Positions 5,745-58,815 of a DNA stretch of 64,000 bases are shown here, piece after piece. Within the stretch, counting starts at the first letter, position 1, and every line of letters starts with the position of its first letter. The DNA comes from Vicinamibacterales bacterium. GTDB lineage: Bacteria > Acidobacteriota > Vicinamibacteria > Vicinamibacterales > UBA8438. The notes beneath the pieces were generated by a model. The model ran no database searches, was not told the DNA's origin, and was given only the letters and a program-made list of their open reading frames with translations. The stretch is taken from positions 24,723 through 88,722 of the forward strand of contig CATQHX010000033.1 of the NCBI GenBank assembly GCA_958296065.1, in the 5' to 3' direction. Position numbers and translations under genes: made by a program.

Positions 5745-6743
5745 TCAGTCCAACGGCTCGCGGACTCCACACTTGTCAGCTATCGTGCGCGCCAGCTTCT
5801 CGAAATCCCGGTAGCAGTCCTGTACCGCGTAGATGTGTCCACCGAGCGCGCCGTCCGCTGCCTTGAGATGGAACATCGGCTTGCGGGCTTCATGAGCCAT
5901 GGCCATCAGGCTGCGATAGTGCTTCAGCGTGGCCAGACATTCGGAGTCGTCGTCCGTCGAGGATACCTTGCCGCCCACCGGTTCAAGAACCTCCTGGCGA
6001 TAGACGTGCGGAATCCTCTTGATCCATTTCTGGTATGCCTGAACGGGACGACCCGCACGAACCGCATGCTGCATCACGATGTAGCCGGACGGCACGATAT
6101 CGGCCGACGGCAGCTCCAGATCCTGCACGGCGGGACGGCGTTCCAGGCGATCCTGCCAATCGCTGCGCCACTCGCGGAGCGTCGGTCCAACATTGCGGAG
6201 GGCCTGCAGGGAGAACAGATCGGGAGCAAGCGGAAAGGCGACGAAGTTCGCCGCAATAATCGCCGCCCGATTGATGGCGCCCAGATTCGGACCGACGTCG
6301 ATCAACGCCAAGTCGGCTTTTTGCTTGTCGGCGGCGTTGAGAATCGTTCTATGAAACGCCGACTCTGTGCGAAACGCCGACTCGTCACGGCCCAAACATT
6401 CCGGCCACGCCGAAGACAACTTCGCCTCGAAGCTGGACAGCCCCAAATCGCCGACGACCAAGCCGAGGTTGGCCGCAATCTGCTCGACGTGTGGCTCCCG
6501 GATGTCGCCGAGCCCTCTCAGGATGGGTGACACGGCACCGAGAATGCTGTCGGGGTGCCCGCCGTCAGGCCACAGCTCCTCCAGCCGGTCCTCGCGAAGA
6601 AAAACGGTGCTCAGGTTCGCCTGCGGATCGAGGTCCGCGGCCACCACCGAGTACCCGAGTTCCGCGTACATCCAGGCCAAGTGGTAGACCAGCGTCGTCT
6701 TGCCGACGCCTCCCTTGTTGTTGAAGAAGGCAATCGTCTTCAC
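5745..6743 (-). CDS. ParA/MinD-family ATPase paired with an AlbA_2 protein
   Basis: 332 residues from GTG 6743, with GGAGG 7 bases upstream. Translation begins MKTIAFFNNKGGVGKTTL, a deviant Walker A motif with the signature Lys10 and the P-loop Lys15 of ParA proteins. VAADLDPQANLS and LALIDVGPNLGAIN are the other nucleotide-site motifs. The ORF-track start at 6992 is a shadow. Its start codon overlaps the stop of 6740-7924 (GTGA), so the two are translationally coupled. ParA proteins bind ATP and dimerise to position DNA or protein cargo. No parB or partition site is visible here, so chromosome partition is unlikely and a role with the AlbA_2 partner is inferred. Confidence 0.85.
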   Translation of the reverse strand: MKTIAFFNNKGGVGKTTLVYHLAWMYAELGYSVVAADLDPQANLSTVFLREDRLEELWPDGGHPDSILGAVSPILRGLGDIREPHVEQIAANLGLVVGDLGLSSFEAKLSSAWPECLGRDESAFRTESAFHRTILNAADKQKADLALIDVGPNLGAINRAAIIAANFVAFPLAPDLFSLQALRNVGPTLREWRSDWQDRLERRPAVQDLELPSADIVPSGYIVMQHAVRAGRPVQAYQKWIKRIPHVYRQEVLEPVGGKVSSTDDDSECLATLKHYRSLMAMAHEARKPMFHLKAADGALGGHIYAVQDCYRDFEKLARTIADKCGVREPLD

Positions 6744-7924
6744 GACCGCCTCCGGATGGTCGCCAAGACATGGGACGTCTCGAACGTGAACTCCGCCTCC
6801 GGGTTCCCGTTCTTCCGCAAGGCGTCCTGCGCGCGGATGACCCCGCGCCCGAAAGCGTTCACGTAGCCGAGGGTCGCCAAGGCCTCGGAAAGAACCGGAT
6901 TGCGATAGTCCGTTTGTCGCGGGAAGTTCTCCGGTGACGCCATGCCGTACAACCCGCCGGGGTTCTGGATTTCTATCCGGTCGTCGTACCAAGAGAACCG
7001 GACGGGTGCATTCGACTCATAGGACCGGTGCATGATTGCGTTCAGCAGCAGCTCGCGAATCGCCACCGGCGGGTAGTCAAGTGCTGTTCGCTCGCGAAGG
7101 GCCGACTCCGCCACGGGACGCGGCTGTGCGGGAAGAGAGACGAACGCCTCGACTTCCCTCAGTACCGTGATCAGGTCGCCGCTGAATCGTCTCTCCGCGA
7201 TCGGGTCGTCCGCCATCGTCGTCCCCGCCCAGCGGACGAATTGAATCCAGGCGCCGGGCATCCAGCGCAGGGGGTCCCTGCTGAACAGCAGTGCCCCCGC
7301 ATTGGTCGGACCGTCGGCGGTTAGATCATAGAACCGGAGCGATGCCATCTGCTCCTCGTCCGCTCGGTTGTTCTCGTCGATGACGGAACGCTCCACGGCC
7401 GCCGGCAGATAGGTGACCAGAAACAAATCGAGAGTCAGGTCGGTCATCGTGCAGCCCATGCACGGGCGGACATCGAAGGTCCGCTGCAAAGCGGCCCGCT
7501 TCTCGATCAGGATCCGTTCTTCCTGCTGATTCGCCCCGCGCCGTGACGGCCCCACGCGAATCCAGACACGGCCCTTGTAGCGCACGGGCGGCAGGTCCGA
7601 GGGCAGCACCTCAACCACCGCCACCTCACCCTCCGGCAGTGTGTACTTCTGCACGGTCATGGCCGGGAGCGGTTCGATGTTGACATTGGAACGCAAGGCT
7701 CCGAGATTCTTCAGCAGCTCGTCGCCGACGGTCAGGCCGCTGAACCCTCCCTTGTCATTCACGCCGATGACGAGGTACCCGGGCTGCCTGTGGTTGGGAA
7801 AATCGTTGGCGAAGGCGCAGACCGCCTCCCCGAACTTGTCCGTCTTAGTCGTCGAGATCGTGAGCTCGACGCGGTCCGACTCGTGGTCCGCAATCAGCGC
7901 GCGCAATTCTTCCGTCGTCAGCAT
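6740..7924 (-). CDS. AlbA_2 (Schlafen-like) and GHKL ATPase domain protein, COG2865 type
   Basis: 394 residues. Residues ~10-150 are an AlbA_2 domain (ESDRVELTIS, GYLVIGVNDKGGFSGL, VWIRVGPSRRGANQQE). The C-terminal part is a HATPase_c_4 domain (AIRELLLNAIMHRSY, DDRIEIQNPGGLYG, GRGVIRAQ). Such proteins are usually annotated as RecG-like transcription regulators or putative DNA-binding proteins; a biochemical role is not settled. The final winged-helix domain present in many members appears short or absent. ATG 7924 opens the ORF. Overlap with the ParA gene indicates a two-gene unit. Confidence 0.85.
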   Translation of the reverse strand: MLTTEELRALIADHESDRVELTISTTKTDKFGEAVCAFANDFPNHRQPGYLVIGVNDKGGFSGLTVGDELLKNLGALRSNVNIEPLPAMTVQKYTLPEGEVAVVEVLPSDLPPVRYKGRVWIRVGPSRRGANQQEERILIEKRAALQRTFDVRPCMGCTMTDLTLDLFLVTYLPAAVERSVIDENNRADEEQMASLRFYDLTADGPTNAGALLFSRDPLRWMPGAWIQFVRWAGTTMADDPIAERRFSGDLITVLREVEAFVSLPAQPRPVAESALRERTALDYPPVAIRELLLNAIMHRSYESNAPVRFSWYDDRIEIQNPGGLYGMASPENFPRQTDYRNPVLSEALATLGYVNAFGRGVIRAQDALRKNGNPEAEFTFETSHVLATIRRRS

Positions 7925-44070: not shown

Positions 44071-44463
44071 TCACCAGGTACAGCGCACCGGATACTGTGT
44101 GATCAACCGATCCGGGGTGACCAGCGTCAGACCGTGCTCGATGCCCTGACACATCAGGATGCGATCGAACGGGTCGCCGTGCAACGGCGGCAGCCGACCC
44201 AGGTGCAGCGTGCTGGCTTCATCCACCGGCAGGCTGGCAAACCGATGGCGCTCGCGCTCGCGCTCGCGCGGAACGAATCGCTCGGGCGAGTCCGGCAGCG
44301 GCATCCGGCCAAGAGCGTGCTTCACCGCGATCTCCCAGGACGAGACCGCGCTCAGCCACACCTGGTTCGCCGGGTCCGCGATCAGGGTCCGCACCCGCTC
44401 CGGCACCTGCCCGGAACCCTGCGCCCACCAGAGGAACGTACAGGTGTCGAGCAGCAGTCTCAC
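44071..44463 (-). CDS. vapC: PIN-domain toxin, VapC type 2
   Basis: 130 residues from GTG 44463. LLLDTCTFLWWAQGSG contains the first Asp, SAVSSWEIAVKHALGR the Glu, GDPFDRILMCQGIEHGLTLVTPD the remaining acidic residues; all PIN positions are present. The subtype (DTHTFLWW-like start) usually pairs with Phd antitoxins, as here. A 6-base tandem run in the middle encodes RERERER, an odd basic/acidic insert that could reflect slippage. GTGA overlap with the antitoxin. Confidence 0.9.
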   Translation of the reverse strand: MRLLLDTCTFLWWAQGSGQVPERVRTLIADPANQVWLSAVSSWEIAVKHALGRMPLPDSPERFVPRERERERHRFASLPVDEASTLHLGRLPPLHGDPFDRILMCQGIEHGLTLVTPDRLITQYPVRCTW

Positions 44464-44705
44464 CGCGGACCGCCCTCGAATCCCTCGATGACGTCGTCAG
44501 GCAGCGGTTCGAAGAACGAGTCCGGCACGGAGAACGTTCCGCGGGCCAACCCGAATGGGCGCGGGGCAGTTGCGGTACGCGGCAGCGGCCGAATCTCGGC
44601 GATCGGTTCGTTGCGGCGGCACAGCACGATGGTCTCGCCGGCCTCCAGCCGGGCGAGGTAGCGGGAAAGGTGCGTCTTGGCCTCGTGAATGTTCAGGCGA
44701 ATCAT
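44460..44705 (-). CDS. Phd/YefM-family antitoxin
   Basis: 81 residues. MIRLNIHEAKTHLSRYLARLEAGETIVLCRRNEPIAEIRPL is the Phd fold that binds operator DNA; the tail (LARGTFSVPDSFFEPLPDDV) wraps the PIN toxin. It is the upstream gene of the pair with 44071-44463. The promoter should lie in 44706-44760. Confidence 0.9.
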   Translation of the reverse strand: MIRLNIHEAKTHLSRYLARLEAGETIVLCRRNEPIAEIRPLPRTATAPRPFGLARGTFSVPDSFFEPLPDDVIEGFEGGPR

Positions 44706-44952: not shown

Positions 44953-47900
44953 ATGAGGAACACACGATTCGGCGTTCTGATTCCGCTCGCCGTGCTCGCG
45001 GTAGGGCTCGGCGGGTACCTCTCCATCGGCGTCGCGGCCGCGTCGGCGCAGGAGCCGTCCGAGTTGGAGTTCCACCGCGACGTCCGGCCGATTCTCGCCG
45101 AGTCGTGCCTGCTCTGCCACGGGCCCAACGACGCCATCCGGCAGGCCGATCTGCGGTTCGACACCGACGAGTTCCTCGAACGGCTGGTCGTACCGGGCGA
45201 CGCGGAAGCGAGCCCGCTGTACGAGCGGCTGACCACCGAGGACCCCATCAGGAAGATGCCGCCGGCCGGTGAGCCGCTGAGCGACGAGCAGATCGACCTC
45301 GTCCGCCGGTGGATCGACGGCGGCGCGGCAATGGGAACCGCGCTGGCCGACGCCGACGTACCGACCATCCTGCAGCGGACCGTGGACTTCGCCCGCGAGG
45401 TCCGGCCGATCCTCTCCGAGAACTGCTTCACCTGCCACGGACCGGACGCGGAGGCGCGCCAGCGCGGCCTGCGGCTGGACGTGGCGGAAGGGCCCTTCTC
45501 CGATCGCGGCGAGTTCGGCGGTCCGGTCATCACGCCCGGCAACGCCGAAGAGAGCCTGCTGATCCACCGGGTCAGCGCCACCGACGCCCGCGTCCGGATG
45601 CCCTACCGGCTGGGCCTGAACACCCCGGTCATGCCGGGCACCGACGAGGACGCCCTCGACCCCGGCGAGATCGAGACCCTGCGGCTGTGGATCGATCAGG
45701 GGGCCGAATGGGAGTCGCACTGGGCCTTCATCCCGCCCGAGCGGCAGTCGGTACCGCCGGTGGCCGGCGCCGAATGGGTCCGCAACCCGATCGACAACTT
45801 CGTCAAGGCCCGGCTCGAGCAGGAAGGCAGGGAACCCTCTCCCGAGGCCGACATCCTCACGCTGCTCCGCCGCGTCACGTTCGATCTGACCGGGTTGCCG
45901 CCGACGGACGGCGATATCGCTACCGTCCTCAGCGACGACTCGCCCGACGCCTTCGAGCGGCACGTCGACCGCATGCTCGAGTCGGAGGGATACGGCGAGC
46001 GGATGGCCGCCGAGTGGCTGGACGGGGCCCGCTACGCCGACTCCAGCGGGTACCAGACCGACGCCCCGCGACAGATGTGGCGCTACCGCGACTGGGTGAT
46101 CAACGCCTACAACGACAACATGCCGTTCGATCAGTTCACCATCGAGCAGATCGCCGGCGACATGCTTCCCGACGCCACGCTCGAACAGCAGATCGCCACC
46201 GCGTTCAATCGCAACCACGGCCAGAACGGCGAGGGCGGCATCGTCCCCGAGGAGTTCCTGGTCGAGAACGTGGTCGACCGCGTGTCGACGACGGGCACCG
46301 TGTGGATGGGGTTGACCCTGGGGTGCGCGCGCTGCCACGACCACAAGTTCGACCCGATCTCGCAGAAGGAGTTCTACGAGATCTACGCCTACTTCAACAA
46401 CGTCCCCGAGCGCGGCAACCTGCGCGGCCTCGGCGCGAAGGCGTTCAAGTACTTCAACTCGCCGCCGCTCGTGACCGCGCCAACCGACAACGACTTCGCC
46501 AAGCTGGCCGAGCTCGACGAGAAGCTCGAGAAGGCCCGCGAGGAATTCGCGAGCCTCGAGGCCGAGTCGGCCGACGCGCGGGCCGAGTGGGAGAACGCGC
46601 TGCAGAACGCCTGGCCGGTCGATTGGGTCCTGCGCGACAAGATCCTGGTCCATCACCCGCTCGACGGCGACATCGGCGGCACCTACAGCGGCGAGCCGGT
46701 GTTTCCCCACCAGGGGGTGACCTCCCACCTGCGGACGCCCCGGGAACCCGTCACCTACAAGTTCCCGGTCAACGTGACCCTGGAGGACGGCCTGCCGCGC
46801 TTCGCCCCCGGCCGGGTGGGCGAGGCGATGAGCTTCGACGGCAAGCGGTTCATCAACGCCGGCGACATCGCCAACTTCACCTACGCCGAGCCGTTCACGC
46901 TGGCGGCATGGATCTATCCCACCGCGTCCGACGGCGTGATCGTGTCGCGCGCGCTGGCCGGCGACCAGGGCGAGCAGGGCTGGGGCCTGTATCTGCTGGA
47001 AGGCAAGCTGCAGGTCAACCTGTCGCAGCGTTACGCGGACGACGGGCTGCGGATCGAATCCGTGGACACCCTGCCGCTCAACGAATGGCAGCACGTGCTG
47101 GTGACCTACGACGGGAACCTGGTGCCGGAGAGCTTCCGGATCTACGTCAACGGCGAGTCGCGGGAGATCAACCCGCTGCTCGACGGGATCAACAACCCGA
47201 TGCGGACGCGCGAACCGCTGCGCATCGGAGCCAGCGGATCCGCCCCGGAGAACTCCGGAAGCACTGATTCGAGGCCTCGGTTCCAGGGGATGATCGATGA
47301 CGTACGCATCTACATGGAGGCCCTGACGCCGGAGCAGGCGGCCGTCGTGGCGACCGGGGAGACGTTGACCGAGATCGCCCGGATCGCGCCGGCCAGCCGG
47401 ACGGCCGGACAGGCCGAGAAGCTGCGGCTCGCCTTCCTCGACCAGTACGCCGTGCCGGAAGTGCGGGAGGCGTGGCAGAACGTCAAGGACATGGAGCGCG
47501 AGCGCGCGACGCTGTGGGACAGCTTCCCCACCGTCATGGTGATGGACGAGATGGAGCCTCGGCGCGACACGTTCCGGCTGATTCGCGGCGCCTACGACGT
47601 GCCGGGCGAGAAGGTGAATCCCGGCGTGCCGGCGATACTACCGCCGATGCCGGACGATGTGTCGAACGACCGTCTGGGGTTCGCCCGCTGGCTCGTGCAG
47701 CCCGACCATCCGCTCACCGCCCGCGTGGCCGTGAACCGTTTCTGGCAGATGTACTTCGGGACCGGTCTGGTCAAGACGTCGGAGAACTTCGGGCTGCAGG
47801 GAGAGTACCCCAGCCATCCCGAGCTGCTGGACTGGCTGGCGACGACGTTCATCGATTCCGGCTGGGACGTCAAGGCGCTGCAGCGGGCCATCGTGACCAG

Positions 47901-48603
47901 CTCGACCTACCGCCAGGCGTCGAATCTGACGCCGGAGGTGATCGAGGAGGACCCGGAGAACCGGCTCCTGGCGCGCGGACCGCGCCAGCGCATGACGGCG
48001 CAGATGGTCCGCGACCAGGCGCTCTCGATCGCCGATCTGCTCGCGCCCAGGCTGGGCGGGCCGTCGGTCAGGCCGTACCAGCCCGAGGGCCTGTGGGAGG
48101 AGCAGAGCAGCCAGGAGTACAGGCAGTCCACGGGCGACGACCTGTACCGCCGCAGCCTGTACACCTTCTGGAAGCGGACGCTCGCCCCGCCGTCGATGCT
48201 GGCGTTCGACTCGTCGACGCGCGAGACCTGCGTCGTCCGCCTCAGCCGGACCAACACGCCGCTGCAGGCCCTGAACCTGATGAACGACGTCACCTACGTG
48301 GAGGCGGCGCGCAGGCTGGGCGAGCGGATGATCGCCGAGGGCGGCACGACGCCGGACGACCGAATCGCCTACGGCTACCGCTTGGCGACGGGGCATCGGC
48401 CCTCGGCGGACGCCGGGGCGGTCCTGCGGGAGACCTTCGACGACTTCCTGGACGAATACCAGGCCGATCGGTCGGCGGCGCTCGAGTTCGTCGACGTGGG
48501 GGAGACCCCCCGCGACGAGACGATGGACGTTGCGGAGCTGGCCTCCTACCAGATGGTGGCCAGCATGATCCTGAACCTCGACCGGACGATCACAAAGGAC
48601 TAG
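44953..48603 (+). CDS. PSCyt1-DUF1549-LamG-DUF1553 giant secreted cytochrome
   Basis: 1216 residues. ATG 44953 is preferred over 44947 because GAGG lies at proper spacing. After a signal peptide, two Planctomycete cytochrome units carry CLLCH (52-56) and CFTCH (~157-161). DUF1549 follows (VRNPIDNFVKARLEQEG, LRRVTFDLTGLPPT, GCARCHDHKFDPIS with a third CxxCH). A LamG/concanavalin-like domain (TLAAWIYPTASDGVIVSR, RIYVNGESR, IDDVRIY) interrupts before DUF1553 (RLGFARWLVQPDHPLTARVAVNRFWQ, FDSSTRETC). The function is unknown, with electron transfer or polysaccharide binding the likely roles. It is cotranscribed with the DUF1501 gene. Confidence 0.92.
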   Translation: MRNTRFGVLIPLAVLAVGLGGYLSIGVAAASAQEPSELEFHRDVRPILAESCLLCHGPNDAIRQADLRFDTDEFLERLVVPGDAEASPLYERLTTEDPIRKMPPAGEPLSDEQIDLVRRWIDGGAAMGTALADADVPTILQRTVDFAREVRPILSENCFTCHGPDAEARQRGLRLDVAEGPFSDRGEFGGPVITPGNAEESLLIHRVSATDARVRMPYRLGLNTPVMPGTDEDALDPGEIETLRLWIDQGAEWESHWAFIPPERQSVPPVAGAEWVRNPIDNFVKARLEQEGREPSPEADILTLLRRVTFDLTGLPPTDGDIATVLSDDSPDAFERHVDRMLESEGYGERMAAEWLDGARYADSSGYQTDAPRQMWRYRDWVINAYNDNMPFDQFTIEQIAGDMLPDATLEQQIATAFNRNHGQNGEGGIVPEEFLVENVVDRVSTTGTVWMGLTLGCARCHDHKFDPISQKEFYEIYAYFNNVPERGNLRGLGAKAFKYFNSPPLVTAPTDNDFAKLAELDEKLEKAREEFASLEAESADARAEWENALQNAWPVDWVLRDKILVHHPLDGDIGGTYSGEPVFPHQGVTSHLRTPREPVTYKFPVNVTLEDGLPRFAPGRVGEAMSFDGKRFINAGDIANFTYAEPFTLAAWIYPTASDGVIVSRALAGDQGEQGWGLYLLEGKLQVNLSQRYADDGLRIESVDTLPLNEWQHVLVTYDGNLVPESFRIYVNGESREINPLLDGINNPMRTREPLRIGASGSAPENSGSTDSRPRFQGMIDDVRIYMEALTPEQAAVVATGETLTEIARIAPASRTAGQAEKLRLAFLDQYAVPEVREAWQNVKDMERERATLWDSFPTVMVMDEMEPRRDTFRLIRGAYDVPGEKVNPGVPAILPPMPDDVSNDRLGFARWLVQPDHPLTARVAVNRFWQMYFGTGLVKTSENFGLQGEYPSHPELLDWLATTFIDSGWDVKALQRAIVTSSTYRQASNLTPEVIEEDPENRLLARGPRQRMTAQMVRDQALSIADLLAPRLGGPSVRPYQPEGLWEEQSSQEYRQSTGDDLYRRSLYTFWKRTLAPPSMLAFDSSTRETCVVRLSRTNTPLQALNLMNDVTYVEAARRLGERMIAEGGTTPDDRIAYGYRLATGHRPSADAGAVLRETFDDFLDEYQADRSAALEFVDVGETPRDETMDVAELASYQMVASMILNLDRTITKD

Positions 48604-48607
48604 ACCC

Positions 48608-50062
48608 ATGAAACCGCAAACCGACATGCAGACGCTGCTCTCTCGCCGGCGGTTTCTCCAGCGCTCGAGCACCGGGCTCGGTGCGGCCGCCGTGGCGACG
48701 CTGTTCCGCGACGACCTGCTGGCCATGGGGGCTGGCGCCGGCGCCGAGGCCATCGGCGGGCTGCCGGGGCTGCCCCACTTCGCTCCCAAGGCCAAGCGGG
48801 TCATCTACCTGTTCCAGGGCGGCGCCCCGTCGCAGCACGAGCTGTGGGACTACAAGCCGAAGCTGGCGGAGCTGTACGGCACCGACCTGCCCCCTTCGGT
48901 CCGCCAGGGACAGCGCCTGACGCCGATGACCGCGTCGCAGGCTGGCTTCCCCATCGTCCCGTCCAAGTTCGAGTTCGCCCGGCACGGCGAGTCGGGGGCG
49001 TGGATCAGCGAGCTGATGCCGCATACCGCCAAGGTGGCCGATGAGCTCTGCTTCATCAAGACGATGCACACCGAGGCGATCAACCACGACCCGGGCATGA
49101 CGTTCCTGCAGACCGGCAACCAGTTGGCGGGCCGGCCCAGCGTCGGCGCCTGGCTGTCGTACGGCCTCGGCAGCATGAACGCCGACCTGCCCACCTTCGT
49201 CGTCATGGTCTCGAGCCGCGGCGGCAACCAAGTGTACGACCGGCTGTGGGGCAACGGGTTCCTGCCCTCCGAGTACCAGGGCGTCAAGTTCCTCTCCACC
49301 GGCGATCCGGTCCTGTACCTGTCGAATCCCAAGGGCGTCGACCGCAGCGCGCGGCGCCGCTTCCTCGACGCGCTGGGCAAGCTCAACCGGCAGGACCAGG
49401 AGGAGTTCGGCGATCCGGAGACGGCCACGCGCATCGCCCAGTACGAGATGGCCTACCGCATGCAAGCCTCCGTGCCGGAGCTCACCGACCTGTCGGACGA
49501 GCCGGAGTCGACTTTCGAGCGCTACGGGCCCGATTCGAGGACGCCCGGGACGTTCGCGGCGAACTGCCTGCTCGCCCGGCGGCTGGCGGAGCGCGACGTG
49601 CGCTTCATCGAGCTCTTCCACCGGGGTTGGGACATGCACACCCAGCTCCCGCGGCGGATCCAGACCCAGGCCAAGGACGTCGACCAGCCGCAGGCGGCGC
49701 TGGTCCAGGACCTGAAGGAACGCGGGATGCTGGACGACACGCTCGTCGTCTGGGGCGGCGAGTTCGGCCGCACCGTGTTCTGCCAGGGCCGGCTCACCGA
49801 GGAGACCTACGGACGCGACCACCATCCGCGGGCGTTCACCATCTGGATGGCAGGCGGCGGGTCCAAGGCCGGCACGACCTACGGCGAGACCGACGACTTC
49901 GGGTTCAACATCGTGAAGGACCCGGTGCACATCCACGACCTGCACGCCACGATGCTGCACCTGCTCGGCGTCGACCACACGCGGCTGACCTACCCGTACC
50001 AGGGCCGGAACTTCCGGCTGACGGACGTCCACGGGGAGATCGTCGACGGCGTCGTGGCGTAG
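48608..50062 (+). CDS. DUF1501 protein, Tat-exported
   Basis: 484 residues from ATG 48608, four bases after the previous stop. SRRRFLQRSSTGLGAAAVATLF is a twin-arginine signal. The body is DUF1501, of sulfatase/alkaline phosphatase-like fold: VIYLFQGGAPSQHELWDYKP, FIKTMHTEAINHDPGMTF, ELFHRGWDMHT, LVVWGGEFGRTVF and HHPRAFTIWMAGGG hold the likely metal ligands. DUF1549/DUF1553 plus DUF1501 pairs are a standing gene pair in Planctomycetes and Acidobacteria, but no substrate has been shown. Confidence 0.92.
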   Translation: MKPQTDMQTLLSRRRFLQRSSTGLGAAAVATLFRDDLLAMGAGAGAEAIGGLPGLPHFAPKAKRVIYLFQGGAPSQHELWDYKPKLAELYGTDLPPSVRQGQRLTPMTASQAGFPIVPSKFEFARHGESGAWISELMPHTAKVADELCFIKTMHTEAINHDPGMTFLQTGNQLAGRPSVGAWLSYGLGSMNADLPTFVVMVSSRGGNQVYDRLWGNGFLPSEYQGVKFLSTGDPVLYLSNPKGVDRSARRRFLDALGKLNRQDQEEFGDPETATRIAQYEMAYRMQASVPELTDLSDEPESTFERYGPDSRTPGTFAANCLLARRLAERDVRFIELFHRGWDMHTQLPRRIQTQAKDVDQPQAALVQDLKERGMLDDTLVVWGGEFGRTVFCQGRLTEETYGRDHHPRAFTIWMAGGGSKAGTTYGETDDFGFNIVKDPVHIHDLHATMLHLLGVDHTRLTYPYQGRNFRLTDVHGEIVDGVVA

Positions 50063-50087
50063 GCGAGACGCGACGACTCCTTCAAGG

Positions 50088-50126
50088 ACGGCGGCATCGG
50101 GGCTACCCCGGTGCCGCCGTTCGTTT
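50088..50126 (+). terminator. Rho-independent terminator after DUF1501 gene
   Basis: ACGGCGGCATCGGGG, the loop CTA and CCCCGGTGCCGCCGT form a 15-bp stem with one G-U pair, followed by TCGTTTCT. It lies 25 bases after the stop and closes the two-gene operon. Confidence 0.75.
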
Positions 50127-50265
50127 CTCCCCCCGCCCTGCCCAACTGGTTGCCCGCATGCGCTGACCGGCCGCGTCAACGGTTCTCTCGCACGGTGTTC
50201 CCTCCCCCGTTCCACCTTGAACGGCGCGCGTGGGACCGTTGATAATTCAGCGTGCGGAGCAACCC

Positions 50266-51660
50266 ATGAAGCCGCTCGGCATCTTCATCAGCAGCGTCCA
50301 ACGTGAGTTCGCCGCGGAGCGCATCGCGCTGCGCGACTACCTGCGGGGCGATCCGCTGATGCGGCGGTTCTTCGACCCGTTCCTGTTCGAGGATGTGCCG
50401 GCGACGGTCCGGCGCCCTGATGCGCTCTACCTGGACGAGGTCGAGCGGTGCGACCTCTACGTAGGTTTGTTCGGGAGCGACTACGGAACCGAGGACGACG
50501 AAGGAATCTCTCCTACCGAGCGGGAATTCGACCACGCGACGGCACTGGGCAAGCAGCGTCTGCTCTTCCTGAAGACGATGGACGGCGCCAGCCGCCATCC
50601 GAAGATGCAGGCCCTGACCGGGAAGGCGCAAGCGGAACTGATTCGCGCGCGTTTCAGGGGGAAGGAAGACCTGCTGGCGGAGCTGTACGCGTCACTCGTG
50701 GAGTACCTGGGCACGCACGAGCTGCTCCGCTGGCCCTTCGACGCTGCCGCGTGCCCGAACGCCGGATTCGATGATCTGGATCCCGAGCACATGACCCGGT
50801 TCGTCGGCATTGCGCGCCGGGCGCGCCAGTTCCCGCTAGCCGAAGATGCACCGGGCGAAGCGTTGCTGGACCACCTGAACCTGCTGAACAAGGAGCGGCC
50901 GACGAACGCGGCGATCCTTCTGTTCGGGAAAGCTCCACAACGCTTTCTCATCTCCTCCGGGATCAAGTGCGCCCACTTTCACGGGACTCAGGTGGCCAAG
51001 CCGATCCCGTCCCATCAGGTGTACACGGGCACCGTGTTCGAGCTGGTGGATCATGCCGTGGACTTCGTGCTCAGCAAGATCGCATTGTCGGTGGGCACCC
51101 GAGCGGAAAGCACTCATGCGCCGGTGGCTTATGAGATACCGAAGGAGGTCATCGCCGAAGCCATCGTCAATGCCGTGGCGCATCGCGACTATACGAGCGG
51201 CGGCAGCGTTCAGGTCATGCTGTTCGCGGACCGGCTGGAGGTCTGGAACCCCGGCCGTTTGCCCCTGCCTCTCACTATCGAGAAGTTGCGCCAGCCGCAC
51301 GAATCGATTCCGGGCAACCCGCTGCTGGCGCGTGCCATGTATCTGGTCAAGTACATCGAGCAGATGGGAACGGGTACGCTGGACATGATGCAACGTTGCC
51401 GGAACGCCGGCCTGCAGGACCCGGAGTTCGAGGCCACGGGCCAATTCGTGACGAGAATCCGCCGGGCGGCGCCAGCCGGAAAGCCGGTCGTGTTCACGGA
51501 CCGGAAAGAAGTACGCGCCGTTTCGCGGAATACCAACCCGGCAGGCGGGCGCCCTGCCCAGGAAACCGGTACCAGCGAGTACCAGCGCCAACCCCGGCGT
51601 CGGCCCAATAAACACCTGCAGTGCGCAAACGACCCCATCGGCAACCCTCGACGTCGATGA
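50266..51660 (+). CDS. DUF4062 and GHKL ATPase protein, defence-like
   Basis: 464 residues from ATG 50266 (GGAG 7 bases upstream); GTG 50230 is a weaker start. Residues 4-~110 are DUF4062 (GIFISSVQREFAAERIALRD, CDLYVGLFGSDYG), a TIR/SEFIR-related Rossmann domain common in immune-like STAND proteins. Residues ~195-400 resemble the COG2865 core, ending in HATPase_c_4 (KEVIAEAIVNAVAHRDY, DRLEVWNPGRLP, GTGTLDMMQRC). The expected C-terminal winged helix is missing; a Pro/Arg/Asn-rich tail replaces it. The nuclease-like gene follows after 4 bases. A role in phage defence is inferred. Confidence 0.82.
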   Translation: MKPLGIFISSVQREFAAERIALRDYLRGDPLMRRFFDPFLFEDVPATVRRPDALYLDEVERCDLYVGLFGSDYGTEDDEGISPTEREFDHATALGKQRLLFLKTMDGASRHPKMQALTGKAQAELIRARFRGKEDLLAELYASLVEYLGTHELLRWPFDAAACPNAGFDDLDPEHMTRFVGIARRARQFPLAEDAPGEALLDHLNLLNKERPTNAAILLFGKAPQRFLISSGIKCAHFHGTQVAKPIPSHQVYTGTVFELVDHAVDFVLSKIALSVGTRAESTHAPVAYEIPKEVIAEAIVNAVAHRDYTSGGSVQVMLFADRLEVWNPGRLPLPLTIEKLRQPHESIPGNPLLARAMYLVKYIEQMGTGTLDMMQRCRNAGLQDPEFEATGQFVTRIRRAAPAGKPVVFTDRKEVRAVSRNTNPAGGRPAQETGTSEYQRQPRRRPNKHLQCANDPIGNPRRR

Positions 51661-51664
51661 CGTT

Positions 51665-52312
51665 ATGCGAAGCCTGGCCGCGACTCGTCCTTTATTTCAC
51701 TCTGAAGCAGACTTTCAATTCGCGTTGGCCTGGCGTATTCGGGAACTGATACCGAACTGCAAGGTCCGCCTGGAGTACAGGGTTCACCTGGAGGACAAGC
51801 CTCTTCGTTTGGACGTCTGGCTGCCGACTCTGGGGACGGCACTCGAGCTGAAGTACAAGACACGACAGCTATTGGCGCCAATAGGTGATGAATCGTTCTC
51901 GCTGGAAGACCAGTCCGCGCGAAATCTCTCGCGCTATGACTTCCTGGACGATGTCCGAAGGCTCGAACGGCTCGTAGAGGCGCGTCGAGCCGAACGCGGA
52001 TTCGCGGTCATCCTTACCAACGACCGTGGCTATTGGGACGCACCGACCACCGATAGTAGGACTGATGACGCCGCGTTTCGTCTCCACGAAGGCAGGGAGC
52101 TGTGCGGGACGCTGGCATGGTCACACGCCGACAAATTGCAGGCGAAGAAAACCAGAAAACAGTCCATTGCCCTTTCGGGCTCGTATCGTCTGTTCTGGCG
52201 CGACTATTCCGACAACACAGCAGCCGCGGCGCAATCGTTTCAGGCGTTCGGAACGAACCGCTACACCAGATATTGCCGATTTCGCTACCTCGCTATACCG
52301 GTGGGTGACTAG
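51665..52312 (+). CDS. PD-(D/E)XK-like nuclease, partner of the DUF4062 protein
   Basis: 215 residues. HSEADFQFALAWRIRE is followed by LRLDVWLPTLGTALELKYKT, in which Asp50, Glu61 and Lys63 form a D-x(10)-ExK core as in PD-(D/E)XK nucleases and related restriction folds. The rest is a mixed alpha/beta domain ending RFRYLAIPVGD. A family name is not certain and activity is inferred from the motif. It starts four bases after the stop of 50266-51660, so both come from one transcript. Confidence 0.7.
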   Translation: MRSLAATRPLFHSEADFQFALAWRIRELIPNCKVRLEYRVHLEDKPLRLDVWLPTLGTALELKYKTRQLLAPIGDESFSLEDQSARNLSRYDFLDDVRRLERLVEARRAERGFAVILTNDRGYWDAPTTDSRTDDAAFRLHEGRELCGTLAWSHADKLQAKKTRKQSIALSGSYRLFWRDYSDNTAAAAQSFQAFGTNRYTRYCRFRYLAIPVGD

Positions 52313-52341
52313 TGCGCGAGCCGTCGTCCTCGCGCGGCAAG

Positions 52342-52438
52342 TGTAAAGACATTTCTGGGACATACCAGCGGCGATCGTGGGCGGAAGTGCCGCAACGCCA
52401 CGGAAGTTGAACTGTAAACTTGTTCTAGGGACACACCA
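52342..52438. repeat. Pair of imperfect direct repeats (mobile-element-end-like)
   Basis: TGTAAAGACATTTCTGGGAC (52342 onward) and TGTAAACTTGTTCTAGGGAC (52413 onward) each continue into an ACCA ending and are 71 bases apart in the same orientation. Repeated terminal blocks of this kind occur at the ends of some insertion sequences such as the IS21 family, but no transposase is in the window. The stretch 52313-52521 holds no gene. Confidence 0.45.
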
Positions 52439-52521
52439 CTAGAATCCTTGAACAAGGCCCATCTTCACAGTTGAGTCAAGTTTGGGATCGGGCTGTCCGT
52501 CGGCAGCTCTGTTCTCCCTGA

Positions 52522-54123
52522 TCACGCGGCCAGCGCGTGCCCTTCCCAGAGGTGGCCGACCTCGCGATCGTACGCGGCGACGGCTGCCTGCAGACGGGTG
52601 GACGACTCCCCGTCGAGCGTGGCGGACAAGACCGGGCCCAGCACGCGCGCCTGGGTGCGGTGGTAGGCCAGGGCGATGCACAGCCCCTCGGCGGTGAGCC
52701 GATACCGCTGGCTGCGCGGAATCCGCTCGATCAGCCCGCGCAGCCGCAGTCGGCGCAGGTCGTAGGTCATCTGTCCGGCGTTGTAGTCGTCGAACGACAT
52801 CCCACGCAGCGGGGCGACCGCCTCGCGGAGCTCGCGGTTACGGAATCCCGCGGGCAGCAGGTCGAAGCGCAACAGCGCGGCCAGCAGCGCCTGCACCCGA
52901 GGGTCCCCGAAACGCAAGGCCGCCGCGCGTTGGCCGTCGATGTGCGCCGGACGGTGCAATGCAGCGAGCGTTTCGGCTCCGATGGTGGCGTCGTGGCTGA
53001 GGCGTTCGACGCCGAGCAGGCGTCGGTTGGCAGCAAAGCCGATCTGTTTCAGATCATCGAGGTTCCTCAGCCGGCGGCCCACATCGAAGTCGTACGTGTC
53101 GTTGATGACCGTCTCGGTGCGCAACGCGCGCCCCTCCTTGTGGTACTGCTTGATCCGCGAGTGCTTGTAGTCCACATGCAGCGACGGGATGACCCCGTCG
53201 GTTATGACGCGGGTGCGATACCGCGTGGGGGTGCGTCGGCTGACGCGCCGGTCGAAGATCAACTGCACGTGGTCGGGTCGTCCCAGGTCGAGGTTCTCGC
53301 GCATCACCTCCTCGAAGAAGACCCGTCCGGCCAGCGGCCGGTCGAAGACCTCGGTGCGCGCGAATTCGGCTTGCAGGATCGAGATGTCGTAGCGGATGCC
53401 CTTCTCACGGTCGTTGGACGAAAACGGGTGCGGCAGCCGAGCCAGCCACTTGCGCAGCAACGCGTCGATCCGCTCTGCCGTCAGGCCGTCGGCCAGTCGC
53501 TGCATCGCTTTGGGGTCGGCGCAGCGCAGGATTCCGTTGTCGAGCGCCTCGAACCCGATGCCGCGCTTGGCCAACTGACGCTTCAGATACTCGTGCCCAT
53601 TGATGCAGAGCTTCGCGTTATAGGGGAAGTACGAACAGAACTTCAGGAAGAACGGCCCGAAGTCGTCGTCGACCACGTAGAAGTAGAAGTGGTTCACCAT
53701 CGCCGTCGAGTCGACCAGCCACGCGTAGGTGGCTCCGGTCGACGGGCGCCGGCGGTGCTCGGTGCGCAGCACGCGCGCCTTCTCCTGGGCCTTGCCGATG
53801 TAGAGCACGCCCTCGCCCCCAGGCCACTGCCGCAGGTACTCCTGCGTACGGTCGTCCTTGCGCTCGCCCCGACGGAACGACACGATGTCGATGCCGTTGC
53901 ATTCGGCGTAGCTCTTGATCGCGTTGACGAAGCGCTGCGTGATCGGCGCCATCAGCACCGAGGACGGCACTGCGGCGCCCCGGATCGTGCGGAAGAAATA
54001 CGCCGCGCCCGCCGCCCGCTGCAGCACCGGAACGTAGACGTTCAGGTACAGCCGGTCGATGCACTCGAGGGCTAGCGTCGTGTGCTCGGACAGGATCTCG
54101 GCGACGGATCGTGCTACCTTCAT
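52522..54123 (-). CDS. Large conserved protein of unknown function
   Basis: 533 residues from ATG 54123 (MKVARSVAEILSEHTTLALE). I recall close relatives in many bacteria, annotated hypothetical, from stretches such as MVNHFYFYVVDDDFGPFFLK, LCINGHEYLKRQLAKRGIGF, RPDHVQLIFDRRVSRRTP, HVDYKHSRIKQYHKEGRALR and FGDPRVQALLAALLRF. The C-terminus (MTYDLRRLRLRGLIERIPRSQRYRLTAEG) is a clear winged helix-turn-helix. The many conserved His, Asp and Arg residues suggest an enzyme on nucleic acid, but I cannot assign a reaction. It is convergent with the nuclease pair. Confidence 0.75.
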   Translation of the reverse strand: MKVARSVAEILSEHTTLALECIDRLYLNVYVPVLQRAAGAAYFFRTIRGAAVPSSVLMAPITQRFVNAIKSYAECNGIDIVSFRRGERKDDRTQEYLRQWPGGEGVLYIGKAQEKARVLRTEHRRRPSTGATYAWLVDSTAMVNHFYFYVVDDDFGPFFLKFCSYFPYNAKLCINGHEYLKRQLAKRGIGFEALDNGILRCADPKAMQRLADGLTAERIDALLRKWLARLPHPFSSNDREKGIRYDISILQAEFARTEVFDRPLAGRVFFEEVMRENLDLGRPDHVQLIFDRRVSRRTPTRYRTRVITDGVIPSLHVDYKHSRIKQYHKEGRALRTETVINDTYDFDVGRRLRNLDDLKQIGFAANRRLLGVERLSHDATIGAETLAALHRPAHIDGQRAAALRFGDPRVQALLAALLRFDLLPAGFRNRELREAVAPLRGMSFDDYNAGQMTYDLRRLRLRGLIERIPRSQRYRLTAEGLCIALAYHRTQARVLGPVLSATLDGESSTRLQAAVAAYDREVGHLWEGHALAA

Positions 54124-54302
54124 GGCTCGGGCTCCGGTCGATGGGCTCCCCATCGGCCAGTCTATGGCCACCGCCGCCATTGTGCGACTAATGAACGCGG
54201 CTCACGCCGCAGAGGGAGCAGCGGCCGGAGTCCGACCTGCCGCCAGCAGTTACCGAGACCTACACGCTCGTCGGTCTGAGGCGCAGCCTCGCTAGTGCTG
54301 AT

Positions 54303-54816
54303 CTAGATGGAAGGGACGACTTTCTCGACCTTCAGGAAGGCTGCCAACGGAACGGATGGGATGCCGAGGATGCCCGCGGCCGTGTTCATCGACATCTTGC
54401 TGTTCGTATCCCTTCGTTCCTCGGTGACGACACGGGCGTCGGTTCCTTCCTGGCGAAGCCGCTGCGCGACCGCGAGTACGTAGGGATCCGCCTCGTCCGC
54501 ACCGGCGTCCTTGTTTGGGTCGAGAACCTGGGGAACTTCAGCCAAGATCTCCTTCACGTCATCCAGCGAAGCAGCTACCGTTGCCGTGTGCTGCCGAAGC
54601 GTTCTGCTTCGCCCACACAAGCTGAGGATCCGGCGGCTTCGACTGAGCGGAACGTTCCAACTCCGCGACGACCTGGGGCGGATACGCGAGTCGGCCTTCT
54701 GTGACCAGCCGCGTCAACTTCCGGAAGATCCGCTCCCGGTGGCGCTTCTGGGTCGAGCGTCTCACCTCGATGATCGACGAGGTGTCGATCACCCAGACTA
54801 CTTGACTGGTGGCCAT
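54303..54816 (-). pseudogene. DUF4411 PIN-like toxin, disrupted by a frameshift
   Basis: The first frame (ATG 54816) reads WVIDTSSIIEVRRS and YPPQVVAELER, then runs WAKQNASAAHGNG to a stop. The second frame (54303-54620) continues RQHTATVAASLDDVKEIL, PNKDAGADEADPYVLAVAQRL, ARVVTEERRDTNSKMSMNTA and GILGIPSVPLAAFL. Joined near 54595-54603 by a one-base shift, they give a complete DUF4411 protein of about 170 residues, with all expected PIN acidic motifs in frame. DUF4411 proteins accompany XRE-ImmA/IrrE antitoxins, exactly as here. The break may be real inactivation of a toxin or a sequencing error. Confidence 0.75.
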
Positions 54817-55964
54817 CAGCGCGACGATGACAACGAGCTGGCGAGATCGTCGAATGCCGCGTCGGGGATGTCCAAGTACTCGACCGCTTGAGAGCGGCTA
54901 AGGAGATCATTGCGTACGGCGTCCACGAAGAAACGCGCAGCTTTAGAGCCGAATTCATCCTCCTTGATGACGAGGCGGTTTCGCCCGCCGCCTCCGCCTC
55001 CCCCTTCAGGCTTCCGGTCGGTGACGGGCGGGATGTCGTCGTAGAGATCCCAACCGGCGCGGCCGAGTTCTATGAGGCGTAGCGTTGCTGCCCGTAGGCT
55101 GATGCGCGCCCTCCTGGCGACTGTGCGCGCGACGCCAAGTTCGCGGACGCGGCCGACCGACCCGATCCTCTGCAGGATTTCGTCGATAGCCCCGGCGGGC
55201 AGGAGCACTGCGGCAGAGAACTGCTCGCACCAGCGCTCGGTCGGGTCGTTCCTCAGTCGTCCAACGCGTTCCAGGCACGCTGAACTGCCCCGGAGGAGGA
55301 GGTGGCCCAGCTCGTGGAACAACGTGAAAATGCGCGCCTCTTCACGCCATGCAGAGCTGACGACGATGACTGGCGCGCGCTCGTGCCAGAGGGAGAAGCC
55401 GTTGCAGGAGTCTCGCCCCAGCGAGTAGACGAATACCGTGACTCCGATGCCTCCGACGGCCTCACGCCAGTGATCGAATGCCCGAGATGGTGACGTCCAG
55501 TTCGTCTGTTGGCTGAACTCGATATTCAGTCGGTCCCGTATGACGGCCCCAGCCTTGGTCGGAGAGTCAGACGGTGAATGGCGGGGAAGGTGCGGCGCCG
55601 GCTCGTTGAGTTCCTGGGACAGCCAGCCGATGATTTCCTGCTGGCGACGCGCCCGCCGGAGGAACCTTCGCTCCATCGGCGACAGCCCTCGCGGGGGTTG
55701 TGACCCGATCGATCTGAACTGAACCCGAAGTGCCCCTTGCTTCGGAGGAGCAGGCAGGAGAAACGTCGCGAACTGGCGATGCAACTTCGTCGCGAGCTTC
55801 TTCAACGGAGTCAGCGTCGGCTTGGTATCGCCGCGCTTCCAGCTCGCCAGGTCGTCCAACGACACGCCGATGTAAGCCGCGAGCTGCTCGTCGGTGTAGC
55901 CCGACTCCTCAACGGCCCAGCTCAGCACTCCCGGCGTGATCGGGACTTCCGTTCCTCTCGGCAT
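54816..55964 (-). CDS. XRE-ImmA/IrrE family antitoxin/regulator
   Basis: 382 residues. The N-terminal HTH (YTDEQLAAYIGVSLDDLASWKRGD) is an XRE DNA-binding domain. Residues ~165-270 are the ImmA/IrrE metallopeptidase with FHELGHLLL (His217, Glu218, His221) and the downstream ERWCEQFSAAVLLPAGAI. A glycine run of about seven residues near 322 precedes a C-terminal domain. COG2856-type proteins are regulators or antitoxins of DUF4411 PIN toxins. The stop shares one base with the toxin ATG. Confidence 0.9.
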   Translation of the reverse strand: MPRGTEVPITPGVLSWAVEESGYTDEQLAAYIGVSLDDLASWKRGDTKPTLTPLKKLATKLHRQFATFLLPAPPKQGALRVQFRSIGSQPPRGLSPMERRFLRRARRQQEIIGWLSQELNEPAPHLPRHSPSDSPTKAGAVIRDRLNIEFSQQTNWTSPSRAFDHWREAVGGIGVTVFVYSLGRDSCNGFSLWHERAPVIVVSSAWREEARIFTLFHELGHLLLRGSSACLERVGRLRNDPTERWCEQFSAAVLLPAGAIDEILQRIGSVGRVRELGVARTVARRARISLRAATLRLIELGRAGWDLYDDIPPVTDRKPEGGGGGGGRNRLVIKEDEFGSKAARFFVDAVRNDLLSRSQAVEYLDIPDAAFDDLASSLSSSR

Positions 55965-56099
55965 CGGTCTTCGCGGAAGACTACTACACGCGTCGGACAG
56001 AGCAGGTCACGACAGGAGTGGGCGCTGTCCGCGCGCACTTGGCGTACGTACTCGTGGGAACGGCCGCCACACCGATTGGTCTCTTCGTGAACCCTTGGT

Positions 56100-57296
56100 C
56101 TACGGCATCGGCAGCAGCGGCTCCACCCCCGCCGGCAGGTGCTGGTCGAACGCAATCAGCAGAACGGCGTCGGAGACGTGCTGCGCCATCAGGTCCACCA
56201 GGTCCACCAGGTTGGTCGAGCCGCCGACCGCCGCGAGGGCGCTCGCGTAGGTCTCCGGGGTCACGGTGTGGGGACCGAAGAGCTGGCGGCCGAACTCGAT
56301 AAGTGCCGCCTCCTTCTCGCCCAGTCCCGCGACCGAGCCGCCGCTGCGCACGACATCGATGACCGCCTGATCCAGGCCGTTGTCGACCGCGACGGGCTCG
56401 GTGAGGCTCCACGTGTACTGATCGTCGTAGGCGCGCGCCGTGACGAGAACCGCCAGGTCGAGGAGCGGCCGCGCCACGTTGGCCTCCAGCGACTCGCGTC
56501 CGGCGCCATGGCCGCGGATCTGCCCCGGTCCCGTCCCCTGGGGAGAGAGCGTCCGGCCGTAGAGACTGGGGGTGGACCGAAGTTGCTCGGCCGGGGCGGG
56601 CAGCGGCGAGAGACGGCTGCGCGATTGCGGGTCCACGTCGTCCGGCTGCGTGAACGGCAACGGCAGGAACTGCGGCCAGCCGGGCGGCATGTGCTGGTTG
56701 AACGCGGCCAGCCGCCCCGCGGTGCCGGCATAGCGCGCCATCAGGTCTACGACGTCGACGAAGTTGGCTTCGCCGAACAGATCCACGGCGCGCCGGTAGG
56801 TCTCCGGGCTCAGATGGTGCTCGCCGTACATCTCGCGGCCGGCCTGGATGATGACCGACTCCCGTTCGCCGAGTCCGGACAGCGCCTCGCGGTTGCGCAC
56901 GACGTCGATGACGTCCGGGTCGAGGCCGACCGCCACCGCTTCCATCTCGTGCAGCGACCACTCGAAGGGCGCGTCGTGCTCGCGCGCGGTGATCAGGATG
57001 GCGAGCTCCAGCAGCGGGCGCCCGACCGGAGACTCCCAGCGCGCGTTCAGACCCGTGCCGGCGCCGCGTATCGCGGCAGCCGCGGCGGCGGGTCCGCCGG
57101 CCGGGTCGGGCGCGGAGGTGGAAAGCCGGTTGCGCGATTCCGAGTTGACGTCCGGCGGGAGCGAGATCTCGGCCTGTGCGCTCGCCGCGCCGGACGCGGT
57201 TGGAGAAGGCGTCGCGCCCGCGGCAACGTACATCACCGCGACACAGAGGGCGGCACCTGGAATCAGGACGAACGGCGGTCTGGTGAACTTGCGCAT
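56100..57296 (-). CDS. Secreted double carboxymuconolactone decarboxylase-like protein
   Basis: 398 residues from ATG 57296, preceded by GGGGAG at good spacing. A signal peptide (FVLIPGAALCVAVMYVAAG) is followed by two repeats of a CMD-like domain: RPLLELAILITAREHDAPFEW and RPLLDLAVLVTARAYDDQYTW, each continuing with a LGERE/LGEKE segment and a helix ending in DLMA. The active CxxC of AhpD-type CMDs is absent from both, so peroxidase activity is unlikely. Secreted double-CMD proteins occur in Acidobacteria; the function is unknown. The NHL gene (57420-58550) lies 123 bases upstream on the same strand. Confidence 0.8.
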   Translation of the reverse strand: MRKFTRPPFVLIPGAALCVAVMYVAAGATPSPTASGAASAQAEISLPPDVNSESRNRLSTSAPDPAGGPAAAAAAIRGAGTGLNARWESPVGRPLLELAILITAREHDAPFEWSLHEMEAVAVGLDPDVIDVVRNREALSGLGERESVIIQAGREMYGEHHLSPETYRRAVDLFGEANFVDVVDLMARYAGTAGRLAAFNQHMPPGWPQFLPLPFTQPDDVDPQSRSRLSPLPAPAEQLRSTPSLYGRTLSPQGTGPGQIRGHGAGRESLEANVARPLLDLAVLVTARAYDDQYTWSLTEPVAVDNGLDQAVIDVVRSGGSVAGLGEKEAALIEFGRQLFGPHTVTPETYASALAAVGGSTNLVDLVDLMAQHVSDAVLLIAFDQHLPAGVEPLLPMP

Positions 57297-57360
57297 CGGT
57301 CGCTCCCCCATGGTTGGCCGGACGGCCGTCGCGCCCGATGCGGCGGCCGTTCCGGTCTAC

Positions 57361-57384
57361 GGACCTGCGGACCTGCGGACCTGC
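57361..57384. repeat. 8-base tandem repeat, three copies
   Basis: GGACCTGC is repeated three times without interruption in the 123-base gap between the CMD and NHL genes. It is probably a slippage product. Confidence 0.7.
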
Positions 57385-57419
57385 TCCAGTCTTCGGGCCT
57401 GCTGCCTGTCCACCCGCCG

Positions 57420-58550
57420 TCACATTCCCGCCGGCATGAACTTCTGCACCCGCCGCCCGTTGAGAGTCTCGCCGACGTACACATTGCCGTCGGAATCGAC
57501 CGCCACCGAGTGCGTCGCCTCGAACTGGCCCGCCATCCGGCCGCGGCGCCCGGTGGTCCCGAGCGTCTCGAGCGACTCGTGGCGCACGGTCCAGAGCAGG
57601 TGGTTGCCTCCGTCGGCATTGTAGATGTACGTCTGGTCCGGGTCGGTCGAGAAGGCGATGTCCCACGCCGAGGCGCCCGCAGTCTCCTTGCCGACGAACC
57701 CCTCGCGGACGAACGTGCCGTCCTTCTCGAAGATCTGCAAGCGGTGGTTCATCCGGTCGCAGACGTAGACGAGTCCCTCGTTCGAGAGCTGCACGCAGTG
57801 GACGGTGTCGCCGAAGATCGGCGAGGCGTCCGCCTGCTGGTCGTACGGCGCGAGCTCGCCGTCGACGGGAGGCCGGCCGTACGCGCCCCAGTGCCGCTTG
57901 TACTCGCCGGTATCGGCATCGAACACGATGACGCGCCGATTGCCGTAACCGTCGGCCACGTAGACCTCGTTGGCCTCGGGGTCGACGCCGATGTCGGCCG
58001 CACGCCCCAGCCGCGTCGTGTCGTGGCTGCCGCTGAGCGGGCCGGCGCTGCCGATCTGCAGCAGGAACGTGCCGTCGCGCGAGAACTTCAGCACCTGGCC
58101 GTCGCCCTGCCCGTTGCCGCCGATCCAGACGTTGTCCAGGTGGTCGACGAAGATGCCGTGCTCCTCGTTGGGCCACTCGTAGCCGTCCCCGGGCCCGCCC
58201 CACGCCTGAACGACGTTGCCCTCCTGGTCGAACTCGATCACCGCCGGGGCCGGCACGCAGCACTCGGAGGTCGGCGGGTCGACCGCTGCGCCGCGCTCGC
58301 TGTCGGTCAGCGACCGGGGCCGGTGCAGCACCCAGACGTGGTCGCGCGAGTCGACCGCGACGCCGATGACGTGGCCCAGCAGCCACTTGTTCGGCAGCGG
58401 CTGCGGCCAGAACGGATCCACTTCGAGCACGGCTCCCGGCACGTCGCCCTGCGCCGCGCCGGCTCCGTCGAGCGCGCTCTGCCCGAGGCCGAACGCCACG
58501 CCCAGGGCGATTGCGGCCGCTCCAATCCACGCCGGGTGTTTCCGCTGCAT
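57420..58550 (-). CDS. NHL-repeat beta-propeller protein, secreted
   Basis: 376 residues from ATG 58550 (GGAGG 6 bases upstream). A signal peptide (AWIGAAAIALGVAFGLG) is followed by NHL blades: IGVAVDSRDHVWVLHRP, IFVDHLDNVWIGGNGQGDG, DIGVDPEANEVYVADGYGNR, VYVCDRMNHRLQIFEKDG and SVAVDSDGNVYVGETLNGRRV. It resembles the lyase-like half of peptidyl-alpha-hydroxyglycine alpha-amidating proteins, although catalysis cannot be inferred. ECCVPAPAV contains a vicinal Cys pair. It is the upstream gene of a leftward pair with the CMD gene. Confidence 0.85.
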   Translation of the reverse strand: MQRKHPAWIGAAAIALGVAFGLGQSALDGAGAAQGDVPGAVLEVDPFWPQPLPNKWLLGHVIGVAVDSRDHVWVLHRPRSLTDSERGAAVDPPTSECCVPAPAVIEFDQEGNVVQAWGGPGDGYEWPNEEHGIFVDHLDNVWIGGNGQGDGQVLKFSRDGTFLLQIGSAGPLSGSHDTTRLGRAADIGVDPEANEVYVADGYGNRRVIVFDADTGEYKRHWGAYGRPPVDGELAPYDQQADASPIFGDTVHCVQLSNEGLVYVCDRMNHRLQIFEKDGTFVREGFVGKETAGASAWDIAFSTDPDQTYIYNADGGNHLLWTVRHESLETLGTTGRRGRMAGQFEATHSVAVDSDGNVYVGETLNGRRVQKFMPAGM

Positions 58551-58815
58551 CGATACCTCCCCCGCTCGAATCCGAGACCCGGGCCGGCCGGCGCGGGCAC
58601 TCGCGCACCGCTCGCCAATGGCAGCACATCGGGCGTCCGGATGCAACAGATGATCCCGTTGAACGCCCCGCGGCAAGGTGATAGTGGGTCGGCCGACCGC
58701 AGCACCTACATGCAGGCTGCTGCGCTGGCGAGTGCGGTGGGGCTCTTCTGACAGCGCCTCTCCACGCGCGGGCGGCGCGGCGGCTGCGGGGAGTCCGGAT
58801 TCGGCCGATCCTCTA

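Follow-up and report, generated by a model that had tools for sequence, protein, structure and literature searches.

In the window analysed here, a stretch of 64,000 nucleotides of contig CATQHX010000033.1 from a Vicinamibacterales bacterium, the gene for a DUF4062-GHKL protein and an ORF for a PD-(D/E)XK-like nuclease lie on the same strand with four bases between them, and this adjacency is an insertion junction. The best explanation for the arrangement is that two unrelated genes came to stand side by side by accident. We consider it likely that the first is a one-protein NADase-ATPase immune gene of a kind often found in type I R-M operons, and that the window copy is an orphan beside an accidental, solitary nuclease. 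The coordinates of the locus are given in Table 1.

Table 1. Features in and around the DUF4062-GHKL and nuclease genes of the window.
Feature	Position	Strand	Basis or remark
DUF4062-GHKL gene, 464 aa	50266..51660	+	Pfam, homologues, synteny; C-terminal winged helix of relatives missing
DUF4062 domain (TIR-like, predicted NADase), aa 6-91	50281..50538	+	Pfam, alignment to KpSwz PDB 10wc, PMC13174449
Codon of putative catalytic Glu87 of DUF4062 domain	50524-50526	+	10wc alignment, invariance in homologues
HATPase_c_4 (GHKL) domain, aa 312-396	51199..51453	+	Pfam; N-box E298/N302 just before domain; GTGT 368-371 conserved
Degraded tail of DUF4062-GHKL gene	51511..51660	+	linker frame-shifted vs G001, no wHTH left, abuts the inserted block at a junction
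Lineage-specific 4.6-kb block	51511..56100		not in syntenic locus of same-genus genome (0.65 kb there)
Solitary PD-(D/E)XK nuclease, 215 aa	51665..52312	+	77-sequence alignment, AF2 model, Foldseek
Nuclease residues D50, E61, K63	51812, 51845, 51851	+	77-sequence alignment
IS-like multicopy element, 1.86 kb	52438..54300		other copies in own and same-genus genome
552-aa protein of IS-like element	52522..54180	-	no match in Pfam, NCBIfam, PADLOC
DUF4411 gene (PIN-like toxin) in two reading frames, probably broken	54303..54816	-	Pfam
HTH + ImmA/IrrE peptidase (M78), putative antitoxin/regulator	54816..55964	-	profile searches

Domains and catalytic residues of the DUF4062-GHKL protein

A Pfam scan of the 464-aa ORF identified DUF4062 (PF13271, E 2.7e-19) and HATPase_c_4 (PF13749, E 3.1e-20) and returned no match to AlbA_2, the place of which is occupied by DUF4062. 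The earlier note had described a TIR-related, immune-associated DUF4062 that replaces AlbA_2 on a COG2865-type ATPase core; the Pfam result bears out the architecture, and the character of the domain is supported by a 2026 preprint in which DUF4062 is a TIR-like NADase family (PMC13174449). With COG2865-type AlbA_2/Schlafen-GHKL proteins the window protein shares the HATPase_c_4 core and, in its relatives, a C-terminal winged helix (wHTH), and this core is about 30-35% identical to that of an AlbA_2-type neighbour at locus L107, the difference being the substitution of DUF4062 for AlbA_2. The GHKL region is also matched by the pAgo/SIR2 profiles of PADLOC. A second, divergent GHKL (COG2865-like) protein is encoded at about 6620-7840 of the window, on the minus strand.

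Among known systems, Swarozyc (KpSwz; PDB 10wc, 11cq, 11cv; PMC13174449) resembles the window protein in its N-terminal DUF4062 and in its layout of an effector with an auxiliary domain. The KpSwz chain of 10wc aligned to the profile of the DUF4062-GHKL family with an E value of 1.6e-6, the match being confined to aa 5-162, while the C-terminal part of the window protein is HATPase_c_4. In this alignment E87 of the window protein lies opposite the alanine of the KpSwz E97A construct (chain residue 84, which is residue 97 provided that one leftover residue precedes residue 15), and by alignment thus corresponds to the catalytic E97. Further, nine homologues, with identities as low as 50%, all retain E87, the N-box residues E298 and N302 and the GTGT motif (G368-T371) unchanged. 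KpSwz brings about abortive infection through E97-dependent depletion of NAD+, and it works alone, with the phage portal as the trigger (PMC13174449). By analogy, the DUF4062 of the window protein would hydrolyse NAD+, and with an effector and a probable sensor in one chain no separate nuclease would be needed. The two proteins differ in that KpSwz carries a portal-binding HTH/winged domain instead of the GHKL core (with a wHTH in relatives) found here, and in that relatives of the window protein occur in type I R-M operons. An AF2 model of the DUF4062-GHKL core from single-sequence input reached a pLDDT of 35 and was discarded. At loci L124 and L130 the fusion is split, the DUF4062 and GHKL parts being encoded by separate ORFs that overlap or adjoin one another.

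The inserted block and the state of the window copy

In a genome of the same genus, G001, the corresponding locus (L104) and the window are collinear, with 89.5% identity over positions 46000-51510 and 86-90% over the right flank at 56101-58565, and between these flanks lie 4.59 kb in the window as opposed to 0.65 kb in G001. Because a block of 4.6 kb thus replaces 0.65 kb, the four-base spacing is a junction. The block carries the nuclease, an IS-like element, a frame-broken DUF4411 gene and an ImmA/HTH gene, and no convincing terminal repeats were found at its ends. In G001 the DUF4062-GHKL gene continues into an intact winged helix, and since this winged helix is also present in another genus (L102), the state of the window, in which the linker is frame-shifted relative to G001, is the derived one. 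The best reading of these data is that the window copy is an orphan which lost its winged helix on insertion of the block. This loss need not have inactivated it, because the C-terminal wHTH is also missing at loci L105 and L106. On the other side of the junction, the ancestral start of the nuclease may likewise have been lost, as suggested by in-frame codons upstream of its ORF (LDVDDV) that are similar to the N-terminus of longer relatives.

The protein of the IS-like element is 93% identical to a copy elsewhere in the host genome (G000:C10) and 91% identical to one in G001; relatives of the element are repeated on Rhodococcus plasmids. The toxin-antitoxin locus and mobile-element-like repeats noticed earlier in this island are present, the repeats as the IS-like element and the toxin-antitoxin-like locus as the ImmA/HTH gene with the frame-broken DUF4411 gene, the halves of whose profile fall in separate ORFs (54562-54816 and 54306-54620; Pfam). 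Together with the neighbouring HTH-ImmA/IrrE gene the DUF4411 gene makes up a decayed toxin-antitoxin-like pair (54303-55964, minus strand). A VapBC-like pair of a PIN-domain toxin and a Phd/YefM antitoxin lies outside the inserted block, at 44071-44705 on the minus strand (Pfam).

A locus in this condition may be decaying, with neither gene now serving the host, a reading that we take seriously without favouring it. The lost wHTH and the frame-shifted linker agree with it, as do the IS-like element and the broken DUF4411 gene alongside and the lack of hsd genes near the DUF4062-GHKL copy, which also distinguishes this copy from guards embedded in R-M operons. However, the reading frames of DUF4062, GHKL and nuclease are intact with all motifs conserved, the dN/dS of the core between the window copy and G001 is 0.22, and some relatives do likewise without the wHTH.

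Type I R-M operons and a possible mode of action

Among the relatives, the DUF4062-GHKL gene has its conserved partner in a type I R-M operon, not in the nuclease. At six loci (L103, L106, L120, L136, L143 and L145), all retrieved by the DUF4062-GHKL query and not by context, the genes are arranged on one strand in the order hsdM-hsdS-DUF4062/GHKL-hsdR-YgjP, with a YhcG-like gene between hsdM and hsdS in several of these operons; HsdM, HsdS and HsdR were confirmed by Pfam in L103, L106 and L120. The DUF4062-GHKL gene overlaps its neighbours by 4 bp on both the hsdS and hsdR sides in L120, on the hsdR side in L136 and on the hsdS side in L103. This repeated placement in two phyla, together with the 4-bp overlaps, suggests that the gene may be co-expressed with the hsd genes. 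Remnants of R-M operons were seen at L109, L127 and L147. Intact hsd genes occur, however, at no more than 6 of the roughly 19 DUF4062-GHKL loci that are largely complete, and stand-alone copies were found on Legionella plasmids and in several other genomes, so that the R-M operon may often house the gene without being required by it. The search of viral contigs yielded no DUF4062-GHKL gene, and samples of Pseudomonadota and Chloroflexota gave no strong match, although so few candidates were scored per genome that absence is not implied. At L122 the gene is followed by one for a predicted GIY-YIG-like protein, as judged by eye. The host has a type I HsdR elsewhere (G000:C26:57777-60896), 51% identical to the HsdR of L103; the contig carrying it, C26, holds no DUF4062-GHKL match.

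Guard cargo is also embedded in other type I R-M operons, namely prrC in EcoprrI and, in the hsdS-hsdR slot of the RRDM island, DarTG2 (PMC12707154, PMC12255303), PrrC being the classical guard inside a type I R-M operon (PMC12707154). The RRDM island additionally contains an M48 peptidase gene (PMC12255303), of which the YgjP-like metallopeptidase gene after hsdR in our relatives is reminiscent. The cargo itself is unlike either, a TIR-like NADase-ATPase as opposed to an anticodon nuclease or a DNA ADP-ribosyltransferase. We found no report of DUF4062 in the hsdS-hsdR slot in a literature search that subscription papers and most preprints lay outside.

We propose that the protein would serve as a back-up to restriction that stays inactive until a phage trigger appears. 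The GHKL ATP-binding core would most likely be the sensor or switch, presumably in an ATP-dependent manner, and together with the winged helix would hold the effector off. This GHKL/wHTH part would sense the trigger, either an anti-restriction protein or some other component of the phage; in R-M operons the trigger may be the loss of restriction. The TIR-like domains would then assemble and the DUF4062 N-terminus, as the executioner, would hydrolyse NAD+ until its depletion leaves the infected cell dead or arrested. A more specific form of this proposal, to which we hold only tentatively, is that DUF4062-GHKL proteins constitute a class of NAD-depleting guards, co-transcribed with hsdMSR, that kill when a phage disables restriction and would be TIR-based counterparts of PrrC. 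Counting against a role as a back-up to restriction, KpSwz senses the phage portal and not the failure of restriction, and its auxiliary domain is of another kind.

Somewhat doubtful, yet worth weighing, is the alternative that the DUF4062-GHKL protein is an NADase of the Swarozyc type which acts on its own in response to a structural protein of the phage, and for which the R-M operon is only a slot for hitch-hiking. The self-sufficiency and portal trigger of KpSwz speak for it, as do the solitary copies on Legionella plasmids and in other genomes and the fact that differing defence cargo is known to occupy the gap between hsdS and hsdR (PMC12255303). However, the same-strand, same-order placement with its 4-bp overlaps points to co-expression, and the auxiliary domain is unlike the one with which KpSwz binds the portal. 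Under the preferred reading, of a one-protein immune gene often housed in R-M operons, a predicted DUF4062 NADase with an ATPase sensor has repeatedly been built into type I R-M operons, which links the new DUF4062 NADases to restriction. Intact operons, for example that of the complete Latescibacteria chromosome OY282377, are available for testing NAD depletion as a back-up to restriction.

The nuclease family and its neighbours

The 215-aa protein contains D50-x10-E61-x-K63, and in an alignment of 77 homologues E14, D50, E61 and K63 are invariant, as are R8, the segment FHSEADFQ (residues 11-18), E37 and W178. The AF2 model built from this alignment (pLDDT 94.3, pTM 0.91) comprises a helix at 14-28 bearing E14, strands at 35-42, 45-53 (D50) and 58-65 (E61, K63), a helix at 86-105 and a strand at 111-118. 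As modelled, this order is that of the alpha-beta-beta-beta-alpha-beta core of PD-(D/E)XK enzymes. The helix-strand core, the D-x10-E-x-K motif and the N-terminal Glu are features of such nucleases as Cas4 SSO0001, PvuRts1I, AbaSI, EcoRI, Shedu and Card1. Foldseek neighbours were mostly PD-(D/E)XK proteins, but with weak scores (best E 3.6e-3 in PDB, with TM <0.4, and 1.4e-3 in BFVD), and the assignment of the fold therefore rests mainly on residues and topology. Searches of Pfam, NCBIfam, PADLOC and PHROGs with the sequence, and of PDB sequences with its profile, gave no hit, and we therefore regard these proteins as an unnamed PD-(D/E)XK family with the signature FHSEADFQ, widespread in bacteria and archaea.

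Relatives of the nuclease were found at at least 208 genome loci, of which the best 80 were examined; these are spread over many phyla of bacteria, and further relatives on plasmid records come from haloarchaea. Five relatives are among viral contigs; none was found in phage records. A close DUF4062-GHKL gene was present at 0 of the best 80 loci. Conversely, among 100 host relatives (host included) the DUF4062-GHKL gene is largely full-length in seven, the other six being about 67-76% identical, and the nuclease is restricted to the host itself, so that six carriers do without it. The nuclease loci have housekeeping or scattered genes as neighbours: clustering of 685 neighbours revealed no conserved partner beyond vertical synteny, and a PADLOC/Pfam scan of the 142 nearest gave no family with more than three members and only scattered defence genes. 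The nuclease is solitary and most likely acts by itself, a DNA endonuclease of the restriction type being one possibility.

From the same two genes the earlier note had correctly described a D-x(10)-ExK nuclease-like ORF four bases downstream and called for the structure prediction that, as a confident model, now supports a PD-(D/E)XK fold, but the defence unit of sensor/ATPase and nuclease that it built on them falls with the degraded 3' end of the DUF4062-GHKL gene at an insertion junction and with the lack of a conserved association, which it had itself named as refutation. That the DUF4062-GHKL protein senses infection and the adjoining nuclease is the effector of a two-gene abortive or restriction-type system is, notwithstanding the shared strand, the four-base gap, the intact catalytic residues and the plausibility of both as defence proteins, highly improbable and ruled out by co-occurrence, absent in either direction among the 100 host relatives, apart from the host itself, and the best 80 nuclease loci, and by synteny with G001, where the block bearing the nuclease is missing and the 3' end is intact; moreover, DUF4062 is already an effector (PMC13174449). 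The claimed system can be dropped, and an accidental pair needs no infection assays.

Within the nuclease family, the actinobacterial members at L080, L084 and L086 are extended at the C-terminus by an additional domain of about 100 aa, and at L132, a prophage on a Peptoclostridium plasmid, a member is located between the genes for the terminase large subunit and the portal.
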